From Acidobacteria bacterium RIFCSPLOWO2_12_FULL_65_11 (GTDB lineage Bacteria; Acidobacteriota; Vicinamibacteria; Vicinamibacterales; CAVVIG01), in NCBI GenBank assembly GCA_001767495.1, contig MELA01000101.1:1-49923 (forward strand): a stretch of 49,923 nt of DNA, given 5' to 3'. Under the pieces are notes generated by a model. The model was given only the letters and a program-made list of their open reading frames with translations. It had not been told where the DNA came from and did no database searches. Position numbers and translations under genes: made by a program. Every line of letters starts with the position of its first letter. Position 1 is the stretch's first letter. Positions 15,673 to 18,242 of this stretch are shown piece by piece.

Positions 15673-16413
15673 ATGAGCGGTGAGTTGCGGACTATCAGAG
15701 AGGCGAACGCGCCCGTGGTCGTCGATGAAATCGGGGAGAAGCCCCTGTCATCGATGTCATCGCTATCGTCCCGATCGCCAGTGGCGTCTGGACGAAGGAG
15801 TCTTTCGACGTTCGAGGCTGTGGAGGGTGATGATTCGCGGCTCGCGGTCGAGATTCGCGGACTGGTCGAGCAGGGCGACATGGCCGAGGCGCGCGGCCGG
15901 TTCACCGAGTTGGTCGCGACGCACCAGCGCCGGGCCTCCCGCATCGCCTATCAGTATCTGCGCGATGTCGCCGAGGCCGACGAAGCGGTGCAGGACGCCT
16001 TCGTCAAGGTGTTCACCCACATCAGCTCGTATCGGGAGACGTGGCCTTTTGAGGTGTGGTTTACACGCATTCTCATCAACGGCTGTCTCGATCGCCGCAA
16101 AGCGCGAGCGCGCCGCGACCGCTGGTTCGTGTCCGGCGAGGCCTCGAATGCTGACGGGATGCAAGGCCTCGCGGACAGCCGGTCCCCTGGGAACCCCGAG
16201 CAGCGGCTGCTCGCGCGCGAACGGCGCGTGCGCCTCGCAGCCGCTGTCGATCGGCTCGACGGCCGCCAGCGGACTATCTTTATGCTCTGTCACTTCGGCG
16301 ACTGCACGCCGCGCGAAGTCAGCGCGATGACCGGGCTCAACGAATCGACCGTGAGAGTTCATCTTTTTCGCGCCGCGCACAAGCTGCGGGCGCTGCTCGG
16401 AGGCAAACCGTGA
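15673..16413 (+). CDS. ECF-type RNA polymerase sigma factor
   Basis: A 246-residue sigma-70 family protein with ECF architecture. After a non-conserved, Ser-rich N-terminal extension of about 55 residues comes region 2 (RIAYQYLRDVAEADEAVQDAF and the TWPFEVWFTRILINGCLDRRK block, residues about 90-155). A linker precedes region 4 (FMLCHFGDCTPREVSAMTGL, then NESTVRVHLFRAAHKLR, about 200-243). ECF sigmas direct RNA polymerase to stress or envelope genes and are held by an anti-sigma factor. The next gene encodes such an anti-sigma factor and overlaps this one by up to four bases. The long N-terminal extension is unusual; a start further in cannot be excluded. Confidence 0.93.
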   Translation: MSGELRTIREANAPVVVDEIGEKPLSSMSSLSSRSPVASGRRSLSTFEAVEGDDSRLAVEIRGLVEQGDMAEARGRFTELVATHQRRASRIAYQYLRDVAEADEAVQDAFVKVFTHISSYRETWPFEVWFTRILINGCLDRRKARARRDRWFVSGEASNADGMQGLADSRSPGNPEQRLLARERRVRLAAAVDRLDGRQRTIFMLCHFGDCTPREVSAMTGLNESTVRVHLFRAAHKLRALLGGKP

Positions 16414-17057
16414 TGGGTCGCATCCAGCACCTCCACGAAGACCGCTTGTTTGATTGCTACCTGGCCGAGCGCAATCGCGAAGCGCCCGACCCTCGGATCG
16501 CTGAGCACCTGGCGGACTGCGAGCCGTGTGTCGCGCGTTATACCGAACTCGTCGCTCTGATGGACGAACTCCGCGCGGATGCCGATGAGGCCACCAGCGC
16601 AGTGTTCACGCCGGAGCGCCTCCGCGCGCAACAGCAACACATCGAGCGGCGGATCGAGCACCTGGGCCACGCCGCGCGCGTCATCAGCTTCCCGCGCCCG
16701 GCCGGCGGGGCAGGCGAACGACACGAGGCTCCGCCCCACAGCATAGGGCGGTTTGTGGCCGCAGCGGCCGCCGCCGGGTTGTTCATCGGTGTGGCCCTAG
16801 GCGCGTCATTCGGCTGGCAGTGGCGTCTATGGCCCTCGTCGGGCTCTAGCGCCAGCGCGCCCTCGCTCTCCTCACCGCGCCCCTCGCTCGGCACGCCGAT
16901 GGTGGCGCGCGAGACGGCTCCGCCGCCCGATGTGGCCGACGATGCCTTCTGGTCGGAGTTCGAACTGATGCTCGATCGGCCCGCGACCCGCGAGTTGCAG
17001 CCGTTTGACGCCCTCACGCCCCGCGCGCGGGACTTCGTGCTCGCAAGCTATCGGTGA
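16410..17057 (+). CDS. Zinc-finger (ZAS-type) transmembrane anti-sigma factor
   Basis: A 215-residue protein. The N-terminal domain carries HLADCEPC (His33, Cys37, Cys40), the Hx3Cx2C zinc-binding anti-sigma (ZAS) motif. One membrane segment is at about 115-136 (RFVAAAAAAGLFIGVALGA), and the periplasmic part is rich in Ser/Pro. It most probably sequesters the ECF sigma encoded just upstream and releases it on an envelope signal. Start choice: GTG at 16410 overlaps the sigma stop by four bases, ATG at 16413 by one; both indicate translational coupling. The C-terminal sequence after residue 140 is not a recognised domain. Confidence 0.88.
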   Translation: MMGRIQHLHEDRLFDCYLAERNREAPDPRIAEHLADCEPCVARYTELVALMDELRADADEATSAVFTPERLRAQQQHIERRIEHLGHAARVISFPRPAGGAGERHEAPPHSIGRFVAAAAAAGLFIGVALGASFGWQWRLWPSSGSSASAPSLSSPRPSLGTPMVARETAPPPDVADDAFWSEFELMLDRPATRELQPFDALTPRARDFVLASYR

Positions 17058-17105
17058 ATTCTGCCCTCCCTCATCTTCCGTAAGGGTCTCGACCTGCAGC
17101 ACGCG

Positions 17106-18242
17106 GTGGCCGGGCTGCTGGCCGCGAACTACCGCAGCGCCATCGTCGATCGCATCAAGGCCGACGATTTCACGTACCGGGCCGGGCGGCTCACCGTGCA
17201 CCTGGCGCGTAGTTTCGGCTTCTGCTACGGCGTCGAACGCGCCGTCGACTATGCCTACCAGACCCGCAAGCGTTTCCCCGATCGGCCGGTGTTTCTGGCC
17301 GGCGAGATCATTCACAACCCGCACGTCAACGACAACCTGCGCGCCATGGGCGTCCACTTCCTGAGCGACGACGCCAATGCCGCCGATCGGCTCGGCCCGC
17401 GCGACGTCGTCATCCTGCCGGCGTTTGGCGTCACCGTCGCCATGCTGCAGCAGCTCGAGCGCCGCCACTGTACGCTCGTCGACACGACCTGCGGGTCGGT
17501 GCTCAATGTCTGGAAGAACGTCAGACGGTACGCCGAGGGTGGCTGGACGTCGATCATCCATGGCAAGGTCTGGCACGAGGAAACGCGGGCCACCGTATCG
17601 CAGGCCGTCGAGTACGGCGGCCGCTATCTCGTGGTGTTCGATCGTGACGAAGCTGCCGCCGTCTGCGAGTACGTCCGTCACGGTGAAGCCCGCGAGGCGT
17701 TCCTGCAGCGCTTCGCGCGCGCCACTTCCGCCGCGTTCGATCCCGATCGCGACCTTCAGCGCTTCGGTCTGGCCAATCAGACGACGATGCTGATGTCCGA
17801 GTCGATTGAGATCGGCGAGATGCTGAGAGCGGCAATGATCGATCGCTATGGCGAGCCGTCCCTTGGAGAGCGCTTCCAGGCCTTCGACACGATCTGCAGC
17901 GCCACACAGGATCGGCAGGATGCGGTCGTGGCCCTGCTCGAGGAGCAGCACGTCGATCTCATGGTCGTCATCGGCGGCTACAACAGCAGCAACACCGCCA
18001 ACCTCGCACGCATATGCGCCGCGTCGCGGCCGACCTTTCATATCGCCGATCCCGACTGCTTGCTGTCACCGACCGAGATCCGCCACCGACCGGTCGGAGG
18101 GCACCACGAGGTGACATCTGCCGGGTGGCTGCCTGCCCTAGGAACCGTGACAGTCGGACTCACTTCTGGCGCCTCGACACCGGACAATCTGGTCGGCGTA
18201 GTGATAGAAACACTCGCCAAGTTCTGCGAAATCAGGACTTAG
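17106..18242 (+). CDS. ispH: 4-hydroxy-3-methylbut-2-enyl diphosphate reductase (IspH/LytB), long plant/cyanobacterial type
   Basis: The last enzyme of the MEP isoprenoid pathway, a 4Fe-4S protein making IPP and DMAPP. From the GTG at 17106 it has 378 residues. The three cluster cysteines are visible: FGFCYGVERA (Cys40), DTTCGSVLNVWK (Cys129) and TICSATQDRQDA (Cys264). GEIIHNPHVNDNLRAMGV and VIGGYNSSNTANLA are also typical. The layout is that of the cyanobacterial/plant form, longer than E. coli IspH. Family-like sequence (PSLIFRKGLDLQHAV) precedes the GTG in frame back to CTG 17061 or ATT 17058, directly after the anti-sigma stop. The real start is therefore probably non-canonical, near 17058. 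Confidence 0.94.
   Translation: MAGLLAANYRSAIVDRIKADDFTYRAGRLTVHLARSFGFCYGVERAVDYAYQTRKRFPDRPVFLAGEIIHNPHVNDNLRAMGVHFLSDDANAADRLGPRDVVILPAFGVTVAMLQQLERRHCTLVDTTCGSVLNVWKNVRRYAEGGWTSIIHGKVWHEETRATVSQAVEYGGRYLVVFDRDEAAAVCEYVRHGEAREAFLQRFARATSAAFDPDRDLQRFGLANQTTMLMSESIEIGEMLRAAMIDRYGEPSLGERFQAFDTICSATQDRQDAVVALLEEQHVDLMVVIGGYNSSNTANLARICAASRPTFHIADPDCLLSPTEIRHRPVGGHHEVTSAGWLPALGTVTVGLTSGASTPDNLVGVVIETLAKFCEIRT

Follow-up and report, generated by a model that had tools for sequence, protein, structure and literature searches.

The long ispH gene of the analysed DNA (49,923 nt at its full length, hereafter the window) most likely starts at CTG 17061, a codon one base away from a canonical start, at which initiation would be aided by an SD-like motif and by coupling to the gene upstream. 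The features concerned are listed in Table 1.

Table 1. Features of the ispH region and related loci of the same genome. Plain positions refer to the window, prefixed positions to other loci and contigs of the data set.
Feature	Position	Strand	Evidence or remark
ECF sigma factor gene	15673..16413	+	TIGR02937, PF04542, PF08281; synteny
Putative anti-sigma factor gene, stop TGA 17055-17057	16410..17057	+	ORF; homologue upstream of ispH in relatives
GGTGA, SD-like motif	17053..17057	+	overlaps the TGA that ends the upstream gene; 3 nt ahead of CTG
ATT, less likely alternative start	17058..17060	+	in frame, abuts the stop; 1 codon ahead of the start column of relatives
CTG, most likely ispH translation start	17061..17063	+	shares the alignment column with ATG/GTG/TTG of relatives; without a canonical start upstream here
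ispH, long IspH	17061..18242	+	NF009911, 503.8 bits (cut-off 440); PF02401
GTG, earliest canonical start codon in the ispH frame	17106..17108	+	internal valine codon by homology; 15 codons past the start column of relatives
Second, short IspH (L031)	G000:C57:23554-24372		TIGR00216, 245.8 bits (cut-off 187.85)
infC frame	L114:1225-1797 (G000:C84)		likely start ATC, 5 nt after AAGGAGG

The ispH frame opens right behind the in-frame stop TGA 17055-17057, where the window reads AGC TAT CGG TGA ATT CTG CCC TCC CTC ATC TTC CGT AAG GGT, and according to the ORF list it is stop-free from there up to 18242. Reading of the window yielded no ATG, GTG or TTG in this frame between the TGA and GTG 17106, so that an ispH start before 17106 necessarily uses another codon. 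An earlier note on this DNA had described the frame in the same way and had named ATT 17058 and CTG 17061 as the sole candidate codons; the description was borne out and both positions are correct. Translation of 17058-17105 gives I-LPSLIFRKGLDLQHA, and the final V of the peptide quoted in the note is the codon GTG 17106. The impression that this N-terminus fits long IspH proteins agrees with the profile search, in which the protein matched the long IspH equivalog NF009911 with residues 7-379, above the curated cut-off, as well as PF02401.

Relative loci were taken from two sets. One comprises the best 29 relatives obtained by searching 60 genomes, the host's own among them; the other consists of the best 80 of 159 places found across GTDB species genomes. 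Some IspH match was present in 58 of the 60 genomes, a few of which match the short type only; in the GTDB set, most record titles read Acidobacteria, some name Vicinamibacteria or Vicinamibacterales, and a few carry other labels. The sets overlap and identical loci were counted once, giving 82 distinct relatives and, with the window, 83 loci. All were aligned on FRKGLD, and the codon at CTG 17061 was defined as the start column (M-P-S-L-I-F-R-K-G-L-D). Among the matches listed, 63 of the 82 distinct relative loci have a canonical start exactly at this column (ATG 30, GTG 28, TTG 5), and the remaining 19 have a canonical in-frame codon farther upstream. In the window, alone among the 83, neither the column nor the frame ahead of it offers a canonical start. 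Skipped in this comparison were 16 reverse-strand loci; in a separate alignment, all 16 have a canonical codon at the column or upstream. A pattern scan covered 162 genomes of the order, of which 61 fit one of the patterns, with CTG at the column in one (the window's) and ATG, GTG or TTG in 60, while the other 101 fit neither and are uninformative. A tree built from 84 IspH rows places sequences with TTG, ATG and GTG next to the window, with weak support, and thus does not single out an ancestral ispH start codon.

The closest relatives of the host genome are acidobacteria. Five loci (L051, L058, L067, L085 and L097) are filed as Bifidobacterium breve, Gemmatimonadales, Elusimicrobia, Woeseiaceae and Acidimicrobiia; they have an Acidobacteria-like sigma/anti-sigma/ispH region and are placed among Acidobacteria in the IspH tree, and these contigs are possibly mislabelled or misbinned. 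In the searches, another locus (L005, G025:C531:1369-2523) showed one TAA within the matched ispH stretch.

If translation began at GTG 17106, where the frame has its earliest canonical codon, the protein would be 15 residues shorter and the stretch upstream untranslated. The relatives argue against this, as 82 of 82 have their canonical start at the CTG column or upstream of it. The note had placed the start upstream of 17106 and had named relatives with an IspH start at the position of 17106 as a refutation; the search for such relatives left the claim unrefuted. Further evidence comes from the codons of 17064-17105, which were compared between the window and 23 relatives with an identity of at least 70%. 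The fraction of differences at the first, second and third codon position is 0.18, 0.03 and 0.52, and the 322 codons comprise 124 identical ones, 142 synonymous differences and 56 residue changes. For 17019-17060, the same ungapped register gives 0.73, 0.73 and 0.76, which denotes an absence of in-register similarity and not a neutral rate, gap lengths being variable among relatives. The stretch 17064-17105 looks coding rather than a product of chance, and translation would cover it from the CTG column onward. Since its codons vary in a coding-like manner, 17106 is not expected to be the start; moreover, the duplex energy before this GTG is just -0.5 kcal/mol with the anti-SD sequence assumed below. 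A start at 17106 is thus very improbable.

The anti-SD sequence was assumed to be the standard 16S tail because a search of the genome bin gave no 16S match. With this tail, GGTGA forms a duplex of -7.6 kcal/mol, a score that ignores spacing. For the 65 relatives whose column codon is canonical, the median is -4.6 kcal/mol, and 8 of the 65 are stronger than GGTGA. The SD consensus given for Vicinamibacteria in an excerpt of PMC10783764 is AGGAGGUG, which includes GGUG. The same GGTGA also yields -7.1 kcal/mol for the stretch before ATT 17058, under the same assumption. Initiation at this ATT, one codon ahead of CTG, would employ a near-cognate codon, and infC frames of the family have ATC or ATT at their likely start. 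However, GGTGA directly adjoins the ATT with zero spacing, and the start column of the relatives is the CTG codon. We consider a start at ATT improbable. CTG appears to be the better of the two candidates because it lies in the homologous column, differs from every canonical start by a single base and leaves some spacing to the SD-like motif.

For the gene ahead of ispH, neither Pfam nor NCBIfam gave a match at E 0.001. This gene is taken as a putative anti-sigma gene from its place directly after the ECF sigma gene and from synteny: among the matches listed, 67 of the 82 relative loci have a homologue of it ahead of ispH, and some of the remaining 15 sit on contigs that end early. The distance from its TGA to the CTG is 3 nt, which is a very short intergenic gap in terms of gene-pair coupling. 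According to the available part of PMC10666635, short stop-start distances favour termination-reinitiation, yet +2 nt cost three E. coli pairs 5, 20 and 70% of their reinitiation. The position of the anti-sigma stop could be assigned in 67 relatives; in 9 of these the stop lies at most 4 nt from the start column, and 3 of the 5 loci that carry TTG at the column are among the 9. This is a hint, from small numbers, that weak ispH starts may accompany tight stop spacing.

For the CTG start, the following course is proposed. A canonical start at this codon would have been ancestral and would have turned into CTG via a one-base change. The CTG would be decoded by the initiator tRNA, giving a protein with the N-terminus fMet-PSLIFRKGLDL. 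The SD-like GGTGA, ending 3 nt upstream, would sustain initiation, and ribosomes ending at the anti-sigma TGA, 3 nt off, may reinitiate at the CTG by coupled termination-reinitiation; the output would presumably be lower. The simplest account is drift by one base, made tolerable by coupling together with the SD-like motif.

Several other routes into the frame were considered and rejected. Initiation at GTG 17054, which overlaps the TGA, followed by a +1 frameshift was dismissed, as the frame of this GTG ends at TAA 17081 and a frameshift is superfluous when the zero frame already fits MPSLIFRKG of the relatives. Read-through of the TGA into an anti-sigma/IspH fusion was discarded because the relatives have two separate genes at varying distances. 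Unusual initiation machinery was discounted since the genome has IF3 and a tRNA-Met with three G-C pairs in the anticodon stem, as is typical of initiator tRNAs. A private promoter that would yield a leaderless ispH mRNA was set aside, no TATAAT-like hexamer being found 6-12 nt before CTG 17061.

Such hexamers were seen in relatives. Before the starts of 65 relatives, TAxxxT hexamers with at least 5 of 6 letters of TATAAT gave 18 matches within 60 nt, 12 of them at 6-12 nt (raw counts). Examples with TATAAT- or TAGAAT-like hexamers 6-12 nt before ispH are L030, L034, L042, L061, L080 and L097, and in some relatives the hexamer overlaps the TAG stop of the anti-sigma gene. These hexamers suggest leaderless or nearly leaderless ispH mRNAs in some relatives.

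The main rival to the drift account is an error in the assembly or consensus, with the real codon at 17061 being ATG, GTG or TTG and the start an ordinary one. The CTG is known from the assembled sequence of one genome, and a one-base consensus error is therefore possible. The 162 genomes searched hold no second genome of the host genus, and a single base parts CTG from every canonical start. On the other hand, the remaining ispH ORF is intact and conserved. The rate of switches to CUG is probably not below the usual consensus error rate. In the portion of PMC5622118 at hand, where close relatives are compared, true switches amount to approximately 3e-5 to 4e-4 for each start. Overall, such an error is unlikely, and drift to a genuine CTG start is preferred.

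It was also considered that the long ispH might be decaying, which would be tolerated because the second, short IspH of the genome does the job. The presence of this second IspH is in favour of decay, whereas the ORF is intact and the third-position bias is maintained. Of 131 near-invariant columns, the protein has a deviating residue at 3 (E51S, D59E and A179V); seven further rows of the 12 listed also deviate at 3, and four rows deviate at more. The IspH of the window does not look decayed, and there is hardly any probability left for this alternative.

The note had further held that the rare start limits or regulates translation of an essential gene. A selected regulatory device is expected to be conserved, as in infC, and CTG occupies the column in one genome against ATG, GTG or TTG in 60, relatives having any of these three codons in its place; the regulation claim is thus unsupported. 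The upstream start and the candidacy of CTG stand from that interpretation, and the limiting or regulating role is not supported. Essentiality of the long copy is likewise not given: a second, short IspH is encoded, so the long copy need not be essential. At least two PF02401 matches were found in 8 of 27 family genomes (own included), one of the 8 having two partial matches. A more far-reaching proposal is that ispH output is tied to anti-sigma termination and to low IF3, such that the CUG would make isoprenoid synthesis dependent on the sigma/anti-sigma operon and, in combination with infC starting at ATC, on the level of the initiation factor; we regard this as unlikely.

Genes for IF3 (infC) form a class with AUU, AUC or AUA as start. 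The infC frame of the host has no ATG, GTG or TTG ahead of codon 18 of the open frame. Across the 23 readable family loci (own included), the infC start column holds ATC in 21 and ATT in 2; 2 additional loci were too short to read. In L137, which is among these 23, a TTG is present four codons ahead of the column. Column conservation and the SD sequence make ATC very likely the infC start. As an internal control, this likely near-cognate start in the host genome speaks for the CTG reading of ispH.

CUG is named among the rare known starts (PMC6397469), and CTG is an ORF-finder option in PMC3890552; PMC12548453 contains no statement on CUG. Findings from other bacteria speak against a CTG start. 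For E. coli, CUG is a poor initiator according to an extract of PMC11497404, and N-terminomics of 688 annotated starts gave 628 ATG, 50 GTG, 10 TTG and zero CTG in the section of PMC13245402 available. For an upstream CUG with SD at Caulobacter dnaA, the accessible text of PMC8443254 reports a toeprint and no use in vivo. Reinitiation at non-canonical starts as treated in the available part of PMC4648390 concerns a eukaryotic system and was set aside. The ispH CTG probably belongs to a class of weak starts that is rare but already described.

If the proposed reading holds, the locus is a clear comparative example of CUG serving naturally as the start of a conserved metabolic gene. Tools restricted to ATG, GTG and TTG would lose 15 conserved IspH residues. 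Furthermore, the relatives form a natural series at one column (ATG, GTG, TTG and CTG) with varied distance to the upstream stop, which lets one ask whether a weak start codon can be buffered by tight coupling and by the strength of the SD.

Compared with known systems, the window protein shares with long IspH its above-threshold match to the NF009911 model (residues 7-379). The infC gene resembles the ispH case as a conserved bacterial gene with a near-cognate likely start, ATC in the same genome; it differs in that all 23 readable loci have the near-cognate codon, most of them with an AGGAGG-like motif in front of it, whereas the ispH CTG is found in one genome. The start switches in the accessible part of Belinky et al. 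2017 (PMC5622118) are 2 of 61,358 reconstructed starts from AUG to CUG, 1 of 5,080 from GUG and 1 of 2,468 from UUG. In these 4 of 68,906, as proposed for ispH, an existing start was changed to CUG by one base; the ispH of the window differs by sitting 3 nt behind an anti-sigma stop. The termination-reinitiation pairs in the part of Huber et al. 2023 (PMC10666635) at hand share the tiny stop-start gap, +3 nt here, but their commonest arrangement is an overlap of 4 or 1 nt, and the coupling of ispH is a predicted one.
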